A stretch of 64,000 nucleotides of DNA. Source: Sphingomonas sp. ERG5. GTDB taxonomy: Bacteria; Pseudomonadota; Alphaproteobacteria; Sphingomonadales; Sphingomonadaceae. The stretch lies in NCBI RefSeq assembly GCF_000803065.1, contig NZ_JSXI01000013.1:1-64000 (forward strand), written 5' to 3'. Shown here piece by piece: positions 17,584 through 26,001 of this stretch. The position numbers and the translations under genes were made by a program. The notes below the pieces were generated by a model. It had not been told where the DNA came from and ran no database searches. It saw nothing but the letters and a program-made list of their open reading frames with translations. Each line of letters opens with the position of its first letter. The stretch's first letter is position 1.

Positions 17584-18618
17584 ATGACGAACGCGCCCTT
17601 ACGGTTAAGCCTCGATTCCACCGCCCTTGTCGCCAACTGGCGCGCCCTTGCGACCATGAGCGGCAGTGCCGCGTGCGGTGCCGCGATCAAGGCCGATGGC
17701 TATGGCCTTGGCGCAGTCGAGGTCGTGAAGCGCCTCGCCGCTGTCGGCTGCCGTGATTTCTACGTCGCCACCTGGGCCGAAGCCCCGGCGGTCGCTTCGC
17801 TCGGCGTGTCCGTATCGGTTCTGCACGGTGTCCGCGAAGAGGATATGGCGCAGGCCGGGGCAGGGCGCGCGCGTCCGGTGCTGAATACCGCAAACCAGGT
17901 TGCACGCTGGAAGCAGGCGGGCGGTGGACCCTGTGATGTGATGGTCGATACCGGCATGAACCGTCTTGGCGTCTCGATCGACGACGTCGCGACCGGGTTG
18001 CTCGACGGGCTGCACATCGAGACGCTGATGAGCCACCTCGCCTGCGCCGACGAAGATCATGCGATGAACGAGCTTCAGCGTGTGGCATTCACCGGATTGG
18101 TCGGACGTACCGATGCACGGCGCATGAGCCTGGCCAATTCCGCGGGGATTGCGCTCGGGAAGGATTATGCCTTCGACCTGACTCGCCCCGGCATCGCCTT
18201 GTACGGCGGCGTGCCCAGGTCCGAGTTCGCGGGCGTTCTCCATCAGGTCGTGACGCCTGAAGCTCAGATCTTGCAGCGTCGTCTTGTGCCGGCGGGGGCG
18301 CCCATTGGTTATAATGCGGCATGTATCGCACCGACCGATCTGGACGTCGCGATTCTCAATCTGGGTTATGCCGATGGCTATTTCCGTGGCTTTTCGGGGA
18401 AGGGGGCCGCACTATTCGAAGGACTGCGACTGCCGGTGCTGGGCCGCGTTTCGATGGATCTCATCGCGATTGATGTTTCGGTTGCGCCCCTGTTAGCCGA
18501 GGGCGATTGGGTGCAGCTCGATTATGCGCTCCCCATGGCGGCGATGGCCAGCGGCATGTCGCAATATGAATTACTGACCGGCCTGGGCACGCGGTTCGAA
18601 CGGCGCTGGATCAGCTAG
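17584..18618 (+). CDS. alr: Alanine racemase
   Basis: A 344-residue PLP enzyme converting L- to D-alanine for peptidoglycan. The PLP lysine is in AAIKADGYGLGA (Lys36), the second catalytic residue Tyr243 in PIGYNAAC, and RVSMDLIAID is the conserved substrate-site motif. It is shorter than many Alr proteins, with little sequence beyond the barrel. It starts 33 bp after the transporter, so the two may be co-transcribed. Its last 8 bases overlap the converging gene on the minus strand. Confidence 0.93.
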   Translation: MTNAPLRLSLDSTALVANWRALATMSGSAACGAAIKADGYGLGAVEVVKRLAAVGCRDFYVATWAEAPAVASLGVSVSVLHGVREEDMAQAGAGRARPVLNTANQVARWKQAGGGPCDVMVDTGMNRLGVSIDDVATGLLDGLHIETLMSHLACADEDHAMNELQRVAFTGLVGRTDARRMSLANSAGIALGKDYAFDLTRPGIALYGGVPRSEFAGVLHQVVTPEAQILQRRLVPAGAPIGYNAACIAPTDLDVAILNLGYADGYFRGFSGKGAALFEGLRLPVLGRVSMDLIAIDVSVAPLLAEGDWVQLDYALPMAAMASGMSQYELLTGLGTRFERRWIS

Positions 18619-19588
18619 GCGGCGGTTTCCACACATCGAGCGGGCGCGCGCGAATCCATCGCGTCGCGAGCCACTTCACGCCCTGGATCACCGGTAATCC
18701 CGCATGGCGCGACGCCGGATCGGGGCTGCCATTGGCCATCACGTTGGTGAAGACGATCGCATCGCCCTGTTGCGGTACGATGGTGACGCCGAGTTCGGAG
18801 AATATGGTCTCGCCACCCTGAAAGCCATGGTTGAGGTAAATCAGCACCGTCTTGATCCGCTGATTCTGCGCGCCGGTGATCGAATCGAGATGAGGGCGAT
18901 ATTGCTGGCCGGGCGCGTAGCGCAGGACGGCGAGCGCTTCTCCCTGGTCGACCTGCGTGCCACTGATCGCGGCAAGGCGATGATTGAGTGCGCGGATCAC
19001 CAGATCCTCGCGCGTCGGGCCGATCACCGCCCCGTCGGAGGTCCGGATCGGGTGGCTGATCTGCCGGCCGGTGGCGGGATCGAGCACCAGCGCGGGCTCA
19101 AGCAGGTCGTTGGCCACCGTCGCGACCTGCATACATTCCTCGGGCGAGAATAGTCGGGGATAGCGCACCAGGTCGCAACCTTCGCTGAGCCGCTCGGGCC
19201 TGGGCATGGTGCGTGGTGCGCCCAGGTGGTCCAGCTTCATGGCCTCGACGAGCTTAAGCTGGTTTGCTGCGACATGGTCACCCCGCGCTGCTGTGCGTAG
19301 CAACGCCAGAGCGGCGGGCCAGTCGGGCACTGCGCCGCTGCCATTGGCGGTGAGCGCGATTTCCATCAGTGCGGCATCGACATGACCGATCGTCACCGCG
19401 CGCCGTAGCAGGCCCCGCGCCTTGATCAGGTCCCGGGGGATGTGCGCGCCCGTCATGCACCACACCGCCAATTCGGCCAGGGCCACGGCGTCGCCACGAT
19501 CACCCGCTTCGCTTAGCAGCGCGGCGCCTCGTTCCGCCTGGCCGTCCTGCGCGAAGCGTTGAGCCTGCTCTACCGATGAAGATGTCAT
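18611..19588 (-). CDS. 2OG-Fe(II) oxygenase (prolyl 4-hydroxylase-like) with Sel1/TPR-type N-terminus
   Basis: A 325-residue two-domain protein. Residues 1-110 are alpha-helical Sel1-like repeats, and residues 130-325 are a prolyl-4-hydroxylase-type oxygenase. The iron ligands are His/Asp in RPHLDSI and a distal His in RHAGLPV; the 2-oxoglutarate-binding basic residue lies in VKWLATRWIR. Such proteins hydroxylate peptidyl proline or similar residues; the partner is unknown. The ATG at 19588 with AGGTGAGC upstream is preferred to the GTG two codons earlier. It converges with alr. Confidence 0.87.
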   Translation of the reverse strand: MTSSSVEQAQRFAQDGQAERGAALLSEAGDRGDAVALAELAVWCMTGAHIPRDLIKARGLLRRAVTIGHVDAALMEIALTANGSGAVPDWPAALALLRTAARGDHVAANQLKLVEAMKLDHLGAPRTMPRPERLSEGCDLVRYPRLFSPEECMQVATVANDLLEPALVLDPATGRQISHPIRTSDGAVIGPTREDLVIRALNHRLAAISGTQVDQGEALAVLRYAPGQQYRPHLDSITGAQNQRIKTVLIYLNHGFQGGETIFSELGVTIVPQQGDAIVFTNVMANGSPDPASRHAGLPVIQGVKWLATRWIRARPLDVWKPPPS

Positions 19589-19615
19589 GCTCACCTTATG
19601 CTGGTGCTGCAGGAC

Positions 19616-19669: not shown

Positions 19670-22600
19670 TTAGAAGCGGGCGCGGAAGCCGGCGTAGAAG
19701 TTACGGCCGCGGAAGTTGTAGATCGAGCTGTTTGCACCGGTTGCCGTCGAACCCAGCGGCGGATCCTTGTCGAGCAGGTTGTCGATGCCAGCATAGAATC
19801 TCAGATCCTTGCCGAAGCCGCCACTGTTGTCGATGTTCCACTCGAACCGGATGTCATGATAGAAGACCGACGGATATTGCTGGATGTCGGCATAGTCCGC
19901 ATTCTCTGGAGGACGCCCTTGCAGGCTGTTGAAGTCCTCATAGTTATTGACCCACATCGGCCCAATGTACCGCAGCCGGTACCCGAAGGTGAACTGCTTG
20001 TACGTCAGGTCCGTATCCAGACGGAACTCGTCGACCGGATCGCCCAGTTCGCCCAGGATCCGATTTTCGAAGTTCGGACGCGTGGGATCCGTATAGTTGC
20101 TGTTGGTCAACTGATGCACATAGATCAGGTTCGAGTTGAGGCGAACGTTCGGACCCAGCTGGGTACGGTACGAAGCCTGGAAGTCGAGGCCGCGCCGAAC
20201 CCGCTTTGCATAGTTGAGCGGAGCCTGGATCAGCGAACCGCCAAGGATCTGACCTGGAGTTTCGCCAAAGGGAGGTGTGCCACCGCCACGGTAACGCGTG
20301 AACAGCCCGCAGAACGGATTGGCGAGCGTGGGCAGATCGTAGCAGCTATTGGCGATCTGCTGTGCGGTCACAGATGTGATCACATTGTCGACCTTGATAT
20401 TATAATAATCGACGCTGAGTGAGAAGCCCGGAATGATCCGCGGCTGAATCACGGCGCCGAGCGTGATCGAGTTCGAGGTTTCCGCCTTGAGGTTCAGGTT
20501 GCTGCCGCTCACGACCGGGAGCGAGTAAACCGCAAGAGAGTTGAGAGCCGGCAGGAGCGCGCCGAGATCAGCCTGGCAATTGGCTGCACGATATTGCGAA
20601 CCTGCACCGATATTGGCTGGGCGGCAGGGGTCCTGGAATTGCGGCGCGAAATTCGGGACCAGCGGGAACGCGGTTTCCGACACGTTCGGCGCACGAACCG
20701 CACGGCTGAAATTGCCGCGGAAACGGATGTCCTGGATCGGTGCCCAATCGGCGCCCGCGTTATAGGCCCAGACCGTGCCGGTGCTGCCCTGATACTTCGC
20801 AACTCGCGCCGCGCCGCTGATGGTCAGCTCGTGGAAGAGCGGCAAATCCTTCACCACCGGAATCCGGAGCTCGCCATAGGCCTCCTTCACTTGGAAAGCC
20901 TTTGGAGAGAAAGTCGGAATGACGACGGCGTTCGTCGCTCCCGACTGAACGAAGGGATCTTCCTGGTAATACGACTTTTCGCGTCGGTACTCGGCACCGA
21001 CCGCAAAGCTGATCGGGCCGCCTGGCAATTCGAAGAGTTGGCTCAGGTCGCCACCGACAAAGCCGGACAGGACAAGCTGGTCCTGCGAGGCGACATGGGT
21101 CGCATTGTAGGTGAAGTATTTGGCCGCGGCGCTGTTATCCCCTCCACCAAAGGGATTGTAAGGTACGCAAGCGGCAATATCCGAGTTAAGCCGGCCCTGT
21201 TGCGCGGCAATTTGAGTAGCGTCGAATCCCTGAGTGAAAGGGACGGCGGATGCTGGATCGAACTGCGCACGGCACTGAATCTGGCCAGTAACGGGGTTAC
21301 GACCGGCATCGAGCGACAGCATAAAACGCTGACGGTCAAGATAGCCATAGGTGGTCGTGCGTTCCTTGAACTTTCCGTAATTGACCGAAAATTCGTAGTT
21401 CCAGTCCTCGTTGAACGTGCCGCGCAAGCCCCCAACGAAACGATAGGTGTCGCGCTGGAATTTTTCGTCACGAATCCCCGAGTCGGCCAATTGTCGCGCG
21501 ACAACGAAGCGATAGCTGCCGTTTGCGATATTCGCGATGTCCGTCGCCGTAAGTAAGTTTGTGGGAGTCGGGGCGACGGCGTTGGGATCGCAGGCGCCCG
21601 TCAGGCTTGTTTTGCAACCAGACGCCAGGATCGCATTGGCGATCGTTGCGCGCGCTGCGGTATTCAGGAACGGGTTGTCGAGCCGAACACGCTCACGGGC
21701 GTCAAACTGCGCAAAAGTACCCTGGATGAACGAGGGGCCCGCGTTCGAGCCCAGCGCATTGACTCGATTCCACTTGGCTTCAAAGAAGAGCTCGGCGGCA
21801 TCGCTGAATGCGAAATGCCCGAGCGCGTTGAAGTTGTAGCGTTCCATGAACGGCAGTACGGAAAGAAGCTTGTCTTCGCGACCGGTCTGGCCATTGCCGC
21901 CGGTGATGCCGCCGAGAATGCCCTGGCCAAAGCGCGCTCCAGTTTGGGCAGCCAGCGTCCCGTCCTGATTGAATACGTAGCTGCAATTATAGGGCAGGGC
22001 GGCATTGGGGGCGCCAGGAAGGCCATTGGAAATACCGTTGCCGCACGGTGCCGACCCGCCCTTTTGCTGATTGATCGTAACCAGGCCGTACCGATTGATG
22101 CTCGTGCTGCGGACGTCACGGATGTAAGTGCGATCTGGAATACCGTCGCTGCCATTGACCAACCCGCCTTGATCGATGTCGGTGACGAAAAGGCCGTCCT
22201 GCGACCGGTACGACGGGATGTCGGAGGCAAAAACGCGAGACTGGCGAGCATATTCGCCGTGCACCATGATGTTGCCGCGGCCGCCGGCAAAGTTCGTGCC
22301 GGCCATCGCCGAGATGTACTGGTTGCCGCCAAAGCCCTTTTCCGCAACGCCCGCGCTGCCACGTACCTGCACGCCGGTGAAGTCGCGCTTCAGCACGAAA
22401 TTGACCACGCCGGCGATCGCGTCCGAACCATAGATGGCGGAGTTGCCGCCGGTCACGATGTCGACGCGCTCGATCAGATCGTTCGGGATGGTGTTGATGT
22501 CGGTGGACACCGCATTGTTCAGAATGTCGGCAGCAACGTGACGACGGCCATTGACCAGTACGAGGGTCCGCTGAGACCCCAGACCACGAAGGTCGAGCAG

Positions 22601-22936
22601 GTTGAGGCCGGCGATGCCGATGCCCAGGCCCGGATTCTGCTGGGCGAAAGTGCTGCGCAGCTGTGGCAGATCGTTCAGCGTGTCGCCGATATTGGTCTGA
22701 CCCTGCTGGAAGATCTGATCACCGCTGATCGACGTGATCGGAACCGTCGATTCGAGATTCGGACGACGAATACGCGAACCGGTGACGATGATCGCATCTT
22801 CGCTGGTCGGCGTCTCGGTTTCGGTCGTCGCGACCGGTTTAACCGATGGAGCGGTTTCCTGCGCAAAGGCGCCCGCGGAAAATAGCACTGAACCGGCTGC
22901 AAGCGCCGTCGCTGCCAAAAGGCGAGTTTTCAGCAT
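19670..22936 (-). CDS. TonB-dependent outer-membrane receptor
   Basis: A 1088-residue outer-membrane transporter driven by TonB. A signal peptide (MLKTRLLAATALAAGSVLFS) ends at AFAQ, followed by a TonB-box-like DAIIVTGSRI, a plug domain (SISGDQIFQQGQTNIGDTL; DLRGLGSQRTLVLVNGRRH), and a long 22-strand barrel ending in aromatic Phe (YAGFRARF). The large size and Asn/Tyr-rich loops are typical of sphingomonad receptors for carbohydrates or peptides; the ligand cannot be told. The ATG at 22936 starts a clean signal peptide, unlike the open frame 28 codons earlier. It is preceded by two operator-like palindromes and ends at an intrinsic terminator. Confidence 0.93.
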   Translation of the reverse strand: MLKTRLLAATALAAGSVLFSAGAFAQETAPSVKPVATTETETPTSEDAIIVTGSRIRRPNLESTVPITSISGDQIFQQGQTNIGDTLNDLPQLRSTFAQQNPGLGIGIAGLNLLDLRGLGSQRTLVLVNGRRHVAADILNNAVSTDINTIPNDLIERVDIVTGGNSAIYGSDAIAGVVNFVLKRDFTGVQVRGSAGVAEKGFGGNQYISAMAGTNFAGGRGNIMVHGEYARQSRVFASDIPSYRSQDGLFVTDIDQGGLVNGSDGIPDRTYIRDVRSTSINRYGLVTINQQKGGSAPCGNGISNGLPGAPNAALPYNCSYVFNQDGTLAAQTGARFGQGILGGITGGNGQTGREDKLLSVLPFMERYNFNALGHFAFSDAAELFFEAKWNRVNALGSNAGPSFIQGTFAQFDARERVRLDNPFLNTAARATIANAILASGCKTSLTGACDPNAVAPTPTNLLTATDIANIANGSYRFVVARQLADSGIRDEKFQRDTYRFVGGLRGTFNEDWNYEFSVNYGKFKERTTTYGYLDRQRFMLSLDAGRNPVTGQIQCRAQFDPASAVPFTQGFDATQIAAQQGRLNSDIAACVPYNPFGGGDNSAAAKYFTYNATHVASQDQLVLSGFVGGDLSQLFELPGGPISFAVGAEYRREKSYYQEDPFVQSGATNAVVIPTFSPKAFQVKEAYGELRIPVVKDLPLFHELTISGAARVAKYQGSTGTVWAYNAGADWAPIQDIRFRGNFSRAVRAPNVSETAFPLVPNFAPQFQDPCRPANIGAGSQYRAANCQADLGALLPALNSLAVYSLPVVSGSNLNLKAETSNSITLGAVIQPRIIPGFSLSVDYYNIKVDNVITSVTAQQIANSCYDLPTLANPFCGLFTRYRGGGTPPFGETPGQILGGSLIQAPLNYAKRVRRGLDFQASYRTQLGPNVRLNSNLIYVHQLTNSNYTDPTRPNFENRILGELGDPVDEFRLDTDLTYKQFTFGYRLRYIGPMWVNNYEDFNSLQGRPPENADYADIQQYPSVFYHDIRFEWNIDNSGGFGKDLRFYAGIDNLLDKDPPLGSTATGANSSIYNFRGRNFYAGFRARF

Positions 22937-22980
22937 GTTATAGAACCCCCGAAAGATAAAGCACGGGCAACAGCCCGGGC

Positions 22981-23024
22981 AACATTGTGCAATGTTTGCC
23001 GAGGCAGTCACATTGCACAATGTT
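22981..23024 (-). promoter_or_regulatory. Twin palindromic operator boxes of the TonB receptor
   Basis: Two boxes of the form ACATTG-NN-CAATGT (22982-22995 and 23010-23023) each form a near-perfect palindrome. Together they make a 15-bp inverted repeat with a 14-bp spacer (AACATTGTGCAATGT and its complement). Centres are 28 bp apart, about 60-90 bp upstream of the receptor start. A TTGACA-like hexamer lies just upstream (minus strand, 23055-23050) but no convincing -10 follows at 17 bp. They are probably sites for a dimeric regulator, not encoded nearby. Confidence 0.7.
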
Positions 23025-23113
23025 AATCAGCGGTTCAGGTAGACTATCGTGTCAATTTCCAAAGCACGTGTAGCGAAAATGCAACATCATGTCTCTGCTT
23101 AGGACAATTCCGC

Positions 23114-24286
23114 TTAACGTTCGATACACATGGCAATTCCCATGCCGCCGCCGATGCACAGGGTCGCCAAACCCTTCTTCACGTCACGCTTCTGCATCTC
23201 ATAGATCAGGGTCGTCAGCACGCGCGCGCCGCTCGCGCCGATCGGATGGCCAATCGCGATCGCGCCGCCATTGACATTGACCTTGTCGGCATCCCAGCCG
23301 AGTTCCTTGCCGACTGACAGCGCTTGCGCCGCGAATGCCTCGTTCGCTTCGATCAGATCAAGATCGCCAATAGTCCAGCCGGCCTTTTCCAGCGCGCGTC
23401 GCGTCGCCGGGACGGGGCCGATGCCCATGATCGACGGATCGACGCCGGCCGAGGCCCAACTCCTGATCGTGGCGAGGATGGTCGATCCGCGCTTTTCGGC
23501 CTCCTCGCGGGTCATCAGTACGAGCGCCGCGGCGCCGTCATTGAGCCCGCTGGCATTGGCGGCGGTGACGGTGCCGTCCTTCTTGAACGCCGGCTTCACG
23601 CCCGACACGCTCTCCAGCGTCACACCGCTGCGGATATATTCGTCGTCGGACACGATCGTGTCGCCCTTGCGGCCCTTGACCGTGACCGGTGCGATCTCGT
23701 CACGGAAGCGGCCAGAGGAGCGCGCCGCATCGGCAAGGTTTTGCGAACGGACCGAGAATTCGTCCTGCTGCCCGCGCGTCACCTGATATTGTTCGGCAAG
23801 ATTCTCGGCGGTGATGCCCATATGATAGCCGTTGAAGACGTCGGTCAGGCCGTCCTTGACCATCGTGTCGACCAAAGCGAGGTCGCCCATCTTCTGCCCG
23901 CCGCGCAGATTCTGTGCATGCGCGCTGAGCGACATCGACTCCTGCCCGCCCGCCACGACGATCGTCGCGTCGCCAGTCGCGATCGCCTGGGCCGCCAGCG
24001 CCACCGCGCGCAGGCCCGATCCACAGACCTGATTGACGCCCCAGGCTGGGATTTCCTTGGGCACGCCCGCCGCCATCGACGCCTGGCGTGCCGGGTTCTG
24101 GCCCTGCGCCGCGGTCAGCACTTGGCCGAGAATGACTTCGGACACATCCGCGCCGTCGACGCCGGCCTGTTCCAGTGCCGCTTCAATGGCGATCCGGCCC
24201 AGCTCATGCGCCGGGACCGATCCGAACGCGCCCAGAAAGCTGCCGACAGGCGTGCGCTTGGCGGCGGTGATGACGATATCGGTCAT
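23114..24286 (-). CDS. phaA: Acetyl-CoA acetyltransferase (beta-ketothiolase)
   Basis: A 390-residue thiolase condensing two acetyl-CoA to acetoacetyl-CoA, the first step of polyhydroxybutyrate synthesis (also used in catabolism). The acyl-carrying cysteine is in NQVCGSGLR, His in [14 protein letters not shown], and the second cysteine in [11 protein letters not shown]. The start at 24286 has GAGGA eight bases upstream. It follows the PHA-synthase-like hydrolase by 34 bp on the same strand, and phaR diverges beyond that, so a polyester role is likely. No phaB reductase gene is in the window. Confidence 0.92.
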
Positions 24287-24320
24287 GGGAGAATCCTCGG
24301 CGCTCGTGATGATGTGGGCG

Positions 24321-25421
24321 CTATCTAGGCGCGGGCAGCGCGCTAATCCAGTCCGCCAGCGGCTCCCATAGCTGCGCTCGCGCGCCACGCCCGACGATCA
24401 TCCCGACATGGCCCGCGCCCAGGTCACGCCGGTTGGGCAAATCGGCTGCACTTGCCGCCGGGACGATTCGGTCGCTCAGCGAAACGAAATCGATCGCGGG
24501 GCAGGTCAGCCGGGCGGGCCCGGCAATCGTCCCGCCGACGCGCCAATGGTCACGCCCGGTGACATTGCCGCCGATCAATTGTTCGAACATCTGCGCGCCC
24601 GCGGCGAAGGGCAGGGGCGCGCCCGCATTGGCCCAATCCTCCATCGCGACGAACGTCCGGGCCGCGACGCTATCCGGATCCATTGCCGCGAACGCCTCAT
24701 ATTTGGCGATCGTGCGCCCTGGATCGAGCCGCCAGAATCCCGCTTGAAGGACTTCCATCGGAACCAGTCCCATGGTTTCGCACGCCGGGCGTGCCGCGTG
24801 CCACAGTTCGGCGATGTCGGTGCGTGCTTTTTCGCTGAACCCATCGAAGCGCCACGGCGCGGCGATCAGCGCAAGGCCCGCGACCGGCGCGGCGCAGGCG
24901 GCGGCGAGCGCCATCGTCCCGCCCAGGCAATATCCCGCCAGCACGGGCGGTTCGGGGAGTTTCGCGATCAGCGGCAACAGCAATTGCTCGACATGGGCGG
25001 TCACATCCATCGCGCGCGCCGCGCGGTCCGGTGTTCCCCAATCGACGAGATAGGGGTGAAAACCCTGTGCGGCGAGCCAGCGCAGTAGCGAAATGTCGGG
25101 TGCAAGGTCCAGGATGAAGGGCGGGTTGATCAGCGACGGCACGACGACGATCGGACGACCGCCGCGCGCGCGCGCGCCATAGTCCCGCAACCGCGCACGA
25201 CCCTTGCGGTGGCGTACGGGGGCTGGCTTGCGGGGCTTGCCGCGCGCCGCCGCCTGATAGGCGCGCAGTCCGCTCAGGGCTTGTTCACGACGCTCGGGCG
25301 ATGTTGCGGTTTCGCTGCGCAACATCTCCAGAAACAAGGGTAATGGCCTTGGTCCGTGTTGCGGTGCGGCATTAAAGGGTGTTACAGGTGAACCAACCAC
25401 TTGGGCGGGGACCTTTCCCAT
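24321..25421 (-). CDS. PHA-synthase-like alpha/beta hydrolase (PhaC/PhaE-type fold)
   Basis: About 366 residues with an alpha/beta hydrolase fold and the cysteine lipase box [15 protein letters not shown], the hallmark of PHA synthases rather than esterases. Other features are [15 protein letters not shown], an Asp in [10 protein letters not shown] and His in [11 protein letters not shown]. It is much shorter than class I PhaC (584 residues at 10583), so it resembles the short class III-like group. No PhaE partner is nearby. The start is uncertain: ATG at 25421 (overlapping the divergent phaR ATG), GTG at 25400 or ATG at 25325; the conserved [11 protein letters not shown] favours a start upstream of 25325. 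Confidence 0.8.
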
Positions 25422-26001
25422 GAAGAAGCAGACACCGGGCGACGGCCCCGTCATCATCAAGAAATATGCGAACCGCCGACTCTATAACACCGAGACGTCG
25501 TCTTACATCACACTCGAGCATCTCGCCGCGATGACGCGAGAGGGCCGTGATTTCAAGGTCGTCGATGCCAAGACCGATGAGGATATCACGCACAATGTGC
25601 TGACCCAGATCATCATGGAAGAAGAATCGCGCGGCCAGACCATGCTGCCGGTCAATTTCCTGCGCCAGCTGATCGCGATGTACGGCGATTCGATGCAGGC
25701 GATGGTGCCGGGCTATCTCGAGGCATCGATGGACAGCTTCCGTCGGAACCATGAGCAATTCAAGACGGCGGTCGAAGGCGCGTTCGCCAATTCGCCCTTC
25801 GCCGAAATCGCCAAGCGCAACATGGCGATGTTCGAAGCCGCGACCGCGGCGTTCAAGCCCGGCTCGGCCGGTGCCAAGGCGGCGGCCGCCGCTGCCGAAG
25901 CGCCGACCGCCGCTGCCGCGTCAAGCAAGGACGATGAGATCGCCGCGCTCAAGGCGGAGCTGACCCGGCTGAACGAGAAGATCGAAAAGCTCGATAATTG
26001 A
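25420..26001 (+). CDS. phaR: Polyhydroxyalkanoate synthesis repressor PhaR
   Basis: A 193-residue regulator that binds both PHA granules and DNA, repressing phasin and synthesis genes until polymer forms. The N-terminal PHB/PHA regulator domain is clear (KKYANRRLYNTETSSYITLE, then DITHNVLTQIIMEEE), followed by the second domain (MLPVNFLRQLIAMYGDSMQ) and an Ala-rich linker. A C-terminal coiled segment (DEIAALKAELTRLNEKIEKL) probably mediates oligomerisation. It diverges from the PHA-synthase-like gene with almost no space, which suggests it controls that operon. Confidence 0.95.
   Translation: MKKQTPGDGPVIIKKYANRRLYNTETSSYITLEHLAAMTREGRDFKVVDAKTDEDITHNVLTQIIMEEESRGQTMLPVNFLRQLIAMYGDSMQAMVPGYLEASMDSFRRNHEQFKTAVEGAFANSPFAEIAKRNMAMFEAATAAFKPGSAGAKAAAAAAEAPTAAAASSKDDEIAALKAELTRLNEKIEKLDN

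Follow-up and report, generated by a model that had tools for sequence, protein, structure and literature searches.

The window analysed here, a 64-kb stretch of DNA from the soil bacterium and MCPA degrader Sphingomonas sp. ERG5, which by 16S is closest to Sphingomonas alpina (PMC4333656), carries a gene for a TonB-dependent receptor of 1088 aa with Plug and beta-barrel domains (19673-22936, minus strand), which we presume to be the regulated gene. Upstream of it, and also on the minus strand, lies an ORF for an acetyl-CoA C-acyltransferase (thiolase) at 23114-24388, the start of which was assigned mechanically and may in reality be further in. A gap of 177 bp separates the receptor ATG at 22936 from the thiolase ORF, which ends at 23114, and two palindromic boxes are found in this gap. 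Directly downstream of the receptor gene, a gene of the 2OG-Fe(II) oxygenase superfamily follows (18611-19594, minus strand), and a similar reading frame could be seen by eye after several related receptors. Close to the receptor start, a small hairpin, CGGGCTGTTGCCCG (22964-22977, minus strand), precedes a GGGGG stretch that might act as the ribosome-binding site. By eye, many related receptor genes likewise show a GGGG stretch upstream of the start codon with a short hairpin immediately before it (22937-22980 in the window; L015-L028), and these hairpins would be located near the 5' end of the receptor mRNA.

Geometry and rarity of the box pair

Both boxes match ACATTG-NN-CAATGT exactly, as the first-pass annotation had described, with perfect 6-base arms flanking two central bases. 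Read on the minus strand, in the direction of the receptor gene, the proximal box is ACATTGCACAATGT (22982-22995) and the distal box is ACATTGTGCAATGT (23010-23023). On the plus strand, ACATTGTGCAATGT stands at 22982-22995 with TG at its centre and ACATTGCACAATGT at 23010-23023 with CA at its centre, each being the exact reverse complement of the other, and it is in this sense that the description of the boxes as mirror images holds. Because each box is nearly self-complementary, the distinction between a direct and an inverted orientation of the two is set by the central two bases only. The boxes lie 28 bp apart, measured from start to start as well as from centre to centre, which corresponds to 2.67 helical turns, and 14 bp separate them. 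Their proper span is 22981-23024, since the arms extend to 22981-22995 and 23010-23024, which are perfectly reverse-complementary over 15 nt. This whole element, which has no strand, is an inverted repeat with a 14-nt spacer that folds as an RNA hairpin. The immediate neighbours of the boxes are the receptor and the thiolase genes, and a gene for a PhaR-type regulator (25420-26001) lies about 2.4 kb off, in agreement with the earlier remark that no regulator gene adjoins them.

The 177-nt intergenic region was shuffled 3000 times with its dinucleotide composition preserved; a perfect 6-2-6 palindrome was present, once or more, in 4.3% of these shuffles, and an identical second copy of it in none (0/3000). 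Dyad symmetry beyond chance, a mark of helix-turn-helix repressor operators in general, is therefore present in the box pair. Matches with at most two mismatches numbered three in the whole 64-kb window against a shuffle mean of 1.3, so that the remarkable feature is the exact repetition and not the motif in its loose form.

A genome-wide search for the box, proposed in the first-pass annotation with copies near related genes in mind, turned out negative: the ERG5 genome (5.74 Mb; 5,739,859 bases in 86 contigs) contained no further exact box and no regulon by exact box. The pair, allowing 4-34 bp between the boxes, occurred in one of 295 genus genomes, that of ERG5 itself, and in none of the other 294. 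A single exact box, one copy each, was present in 16 of these 294 genomes, and across the genus single exact boxes were fewer than matches to the reversed control pattern counted in the same table. Eleven one-mismatch sites were found in the ERG5 genome, nine of them within ORFs 100 aa or longer, some of which may not be genes, and the remaining two being L006 and L013. The loose form of the box (16-mer, at most three mismatches) gave 68 sites in the same genome, a number that counts the two boxes, whereas the reversed control gave 24. Thirteen of the 66 other loose sites were examined (L248-L260); four of the 13 were outside called ORFs, and only the site upstream of an iclR-type gene had a recognisable regulator, judged by eye, as its neighbour.

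Furthermore, none of the other 49 receptor loci scanned had the box pair upstream, and among the papers listed by literature searches on the boxes, their half-sites and regulators, none concerned these boxes. The boxes did not recur at related genes or at the gene of their own regulator, and a regulon for them is unsupported; the lack of copies near related genes, which the first-pass annotation had named as part of what would speak against its idea, is largely borne out. The only leads to a recurrence are the one-mismatch site at the iclR-type gene and a one-mismatch copy upstream of the receptor L021, both of which are taken up below.

The conserved upstream dyad and the putative core promoter

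All 151 genus genomes searched contained some receptor match. The upstream regions of related receptors share a dyad, which in the window is TGTTGCATTTTCGCTACA (TGTTGC-N6-GCTACA; 23069-23086, minus strand). Its pattern, [TCA]GTnnC-N6-GnnAC[AG] with some limits on n, was located between 200 and 100 nt ahead of the start codon in 40 of 47 receptor upstream regions, seven being without it, in a set that includes the window and keeps other close relatives but leaves out the three near-identical rows L017-L019. A stricter form of the dyad was present in 16 of 31 regions (the window included, L017-L019 left out), as opposed to a mean of 0.11 and a maximum of 2 in dinucleotide shuffles.

The dyad is followed at preferred distances by a TTG. 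In 33 of the 40 dyad-bearing regions, a TTG was found 53-55 or 64-66 nt past the dyad start, offsets that were picked after viewing the data, against a mean of 3.7 and a maximum of 11 in mononucleotide shuffles. An offset of 61 was also frequent (six rows, all of them close relatives that form one group). The two preferred distances are about one helical turn apart, which would fit an activator site facing the polymerase.

In the window, the dyad starts 66 nt upstream of a TTG that is part of TTGTGC at 23015-23020 (minus strand), inside the distal box. We infer this hexamer to be the -35 element; the window and three homologous promoters (G033, G047 and G214) share the sequence GATTAAC[A/G]TTGTG at this position. 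A candidate -10 element at 22991-22997, mostly within the proximal box and 17-18 bp past the -35 element, could be AACATT (22991-22996, minus strand, spacer 18) or, alternatively, AAACAT (22992-22997, minus strand, spacer 17). Both match the consensus weakly, and a scan with the sigma-70 consensus found no promoter. Transcription of the receptor gene might begin near 22984, inside the proximal box. With this layout, the distal box would include the -35 element, and the proximal box would cover most of the -10 element and the start region.

A dyad of the form TGTnnC-N6-GnnACA also stands before a paralogous receptor in the ERG5 genome (G000:C17:289591-289608). The same pattern occurs at G000:C60:176802, C45:4193 and C1:286754, before genes encoding, as judged by eye, exported or outer-membrane proteins, and other matches to the pattern lie inside ORFs. 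The conserved dyad looks like an activator site common to outer-membrane genes. In the available part of its description, the ChvI motif of Caulobacter is given as TTGC-N3-GCAA, which has half-sites like those of the dyad (in its fullest form TTGC-N6-GCAA) and is likewise found at envelope genes (PMC9731502). However, its spacer is 3 instead of 6, and the ChvI motif failed for the dyad on this account; moreover, the likeness concerns the dyad, not the boxes (PMC9731502).

The promoters of G033 and G047 could be aligned with that of the window over most of its length, and that of G214 in pieces, a 19-base block, ATGTTGCATTTTCGCTACA, being identical in all four. A search of plasmids gave no promoter homologue. 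Neither the proximal box nor the right half of the distal box was present in the G033, G047 and G214 promoters; both occur in the window only. Since of the two boxes these relatives keep only the -35 block, the distal box would be either an old promoter block made palindromic, with the proximal box newly added, or both boxes would have been lost in the relatives. The ERG5 lineage seems to have gained the boxes recently, in part on top of the older conserved -35 block.

The window promoter and the start of the signal peptide are closest to those of G033 and G047 (19673-23086 versus L043 and L294), the receptors of which are only 50% identical to that of the window, and receptors 68-69% identical to it (L015-L019) carry other promoters. 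Recombination between receptor promoter and gene body is possible.

Among the 31 receptor upstream regions, a box copy with at most one mismatch was found only in the window and in L021, the receptor of which is 64% identical to that of the window. Instead of lying on the promoter, the L021 copy, ACATGGCGCAATGT, adjoins and overlaps the conserved upstream dyad, and is thus at another position than the boxes in the window. It is not easily chance, as shuffles of the 31 regions yielded such a copy 0.01 times on average.

Proposed operators and possible alternatives

We propose that the boxes are lineage-specific operators, both recognised by a single dimeric helix-turn-helix repressor that is encoded elsewhere in the genome, a reading to which we would give an even chance. 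Because dyads with the same half-sites sit on the putative -35 element and on the putative -10 element and start, a dimeric repressor excluding the polymerase is suggested. The distal box would overlay the -35 element of the receptor core promoter and the proximal box its -10 element and start, a bound repressor would block RNA polymerase, and a ligand would release the repressor from the boxes to give the polymerase access. This proposal builds on what was observed, namely the sequences of the boxes, their rarity and where they lie with respect to elements that relatives conserve. Paired operators of helix-turn-helix repressors overlapping the -35 and -10 elements are a known general kind. 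The boxes resemble them in being two dyads with the same half-sites on what would be the core promoter, and differ from them in their occurrence in one genome and in their out-of-phase spacing.

The absence of further exact copies from the ERG5 genome, the location of nine of the 11 one-mismatch sites inside ORFs, the missing palindromes in the three homologous promoters, the single exact boxes in 16 of 294 other genus genomes, the lack of a good -10 element, the negative sigma-70 scan and the spacing out of helical phase speak against this reading. The promoter and the position of its start, the repression itself and the identity of the protein and its ligand are what we infer. An operator role on this putative promoter is nevertheless plausible. 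In the first-pass annotation, the boxes had been called a strong candidate for cooperative operator sites, and the operator part of that idea retains its ground in the two dyads, with the same half-sites and beyond chance, on the putative -35 and -10/start. Its cooperative part does not: since 28 bp amount to 2.67 turns, a pair of dimers would be bound on different faces of the helix, leaving cooperativity unsupported, and IclR-type tandem operators have a spacing of 18-22 bp according to the available part of their description (PMC8222616).

We consider it unlikely, yet worth weighing, that the palindromes are non-functional, having arisen through template-switch mutation in an AT-rich part of the promoter and persisted neutrally. 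The three homologous promoters alignable across this site do not have them, which would agree with such an origin, as would the left half of the distal box, which predates the palindrome. However, template switching would account for a stem with matching arms, not for arms that are each palindromic, and two copies of one dyad on a core promoter seem improbable without selection (0/3000 shuffles).

Decidedly doubtful is a third explanation, in which the palindromes are secondary and the 15-nt arms pair in RNA reading through from the thiolase gene, as a terminator, an RNA-processing or a stability hairpin, or in the DNA as a cruciform. The arms are indeed perfect over 15 nt, RNA of 22975-23030 folds to -27.1 kcal/mol (z -6.1), and the whole intergenic region folds with a z of -5.0. 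Selection for a hairpin, however, needs no palindromic arms, whereas a 15-bp hairpin comes free with two such dyads in inverse orientation. No U-run follows the hairpin on either strand. A transcription start inside the proximal box, as the conserved promoter layout suggests, would leave most of the stem outside the receptor mRNA, so that the whole stem would be present in thiolase read-through RNA only. Other long inverted repeats occur in several related upstream regions, but with other sequences and at other positions. An intrinsic terminator was considered and rejected, the stem being AT-rich and followed by TGCCCGGG without a U-run, and the sole match of the terminator scan was the small hairpin at 22964-22977. 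A search for Rfam cis-regulatory families gave six matches up to E 5, none of them near the gathering score (the top match having 20.3 bits versus 51).

We regard as very unlikely a special case of the proposed repressor, in which the regulator would be WP_020997501.1, an IclR-type protein encoded on plasmid pCADAB1 that would control the chromosomal site in trans in addition to its own promoter. Its gene, carrying Pfam IclR_C and HTH_IclR, is divergent from a CoA-transferase gene, and a Tn3-family transposase and a recombinase adjoin the two (L285, G000:C74, 5698-11623). The best near-match to the box outside ORFs, AACATTGCGGAATGTT, lies 30 bp before this gene; the site there, ACATTCCGCAATGT, has one mismatch to the box and was equalled in 3 of 2000 shuffles, but it was chosen out of 11 near-matches. 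A 62%-identical regulator with the same divergent CoA-transferase is encoded on pSHV1 of Sphingobium herbicidovorans, where ACATTGTGCAACAT (two mismatches; equalled in 17 of 2000 shuffles) precedes the matching part. The ERG5 genome contains three copies of ACATTNNGCAAYRT, a sequence drawn from the pCADAB1 and pSHV1 sites, namely in the iclR upstream region and in the two boxes. However, the pSHV1 site is inside the CDS as annotated, the start being annotated further upstream, and pSHV1 has ACATTNNGCAAYRT once more, as an exact match within an ORF, and both findings weigh against the IclR protein.

Relatives and published consensuses also speak against this protein. At E 1e-65, the IclR-type protein was found in none of the 347 family-drawn genomes except its own, and the 44-47% identical IclR relatives found in eight other genus genomes (E 1e-60) have only sites with 3-4 mismatches to the box. 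pSHV1 carries a TonB receptor gene where pCADAB1 has the transposase. No box with three or fewer mismatches was found upstream of this receptor beside the pSHV1 regulator. When the receptor intergenic region was compared with the IclR operator consensuses GKTYCRYW3-4RYGRAMC and TGRAACAN1-2TGTTYCA, both failed, the best matches having four mismatches and being equalled in 15-24 of 60 shuffles; only one among these best matches overlaps a box. A better IclR site, ATTTCAYAATGYTGAAA, one mismatch from a published IclR consensus, was present in four of the ten promoters tested (pSHV1, L266, L268 and L269, the last two being near-identical), and the pCADAB1 iclR promoter was without a good one (three mismatches, equalled in 7 of 60 shuffles).

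According to the available part of their description, IclR-type tandem operators are spaced by 18-22 bp, or by about three or four turns (PMC8222616). The boxes are like them in being tandem dyads with centres about 20-80 nt before the gene start, but differ in the 28 bp (2.67 turns) between centres, which fails the spacing criterion, and in half-sites that match neither published IclR consensus better than shuffles (PMC8222616). In another sphingomonad, Sphingobium sp. SHPJ-2, the IclR-type regulator PheR protects 44 bp of the phnA1 promoter, and TonB receptors are up in the deletion mutant, which favours an IclR-type protein; the PheR-phnA1 core GCAACG, however, is absent from the boxes, and the accessible part of that report gives no paired dyad for PheR (PMC13273656). 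These tandem sites and PheR are the nearest described systems that we found, as far as the available parts of both reports go, and neither matches the boxes in sequence.

It is more improbable still that the pCADAB1 repressor acquired chromosomal operators, the two boxes having evolved on an old activator-driven receptor promoter. If true, a plasmid gene would control outer-membrane uptake of its host. The herbicide genes of pCADAB1 have been described, in the part of the text available, without mention of an IclR regulator (PMC3877037).

Regarding the remaining candidate, PhaR, encoded 2.4 kb away, we find it scarcely credible that it binds the boxes and links the receptor to polyhydroxyalkanoate metabolism: its gene is a nearby DNA-binding gene beside the thiolase and a PHA-synthase-like gene, but the thiolase end is readable by eye before several related receptors where the boxes are absent, and PhaR sites are TGC/GCA repeats with a spacing unlike that of the boxes.

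Implications for receptor control in sphingomonads

The box pair is a modest observation from a single genome, that of a strain studied for herbicide removal. For the regulation of sphingomonad receptors, the conserved upstream dyad is probably a more useful lead than the boxes. If the boxes are functional as the two operators proposed here, they would be a neat example of repression added, within a single lineage, to a promoter with an old genus-wide control site.
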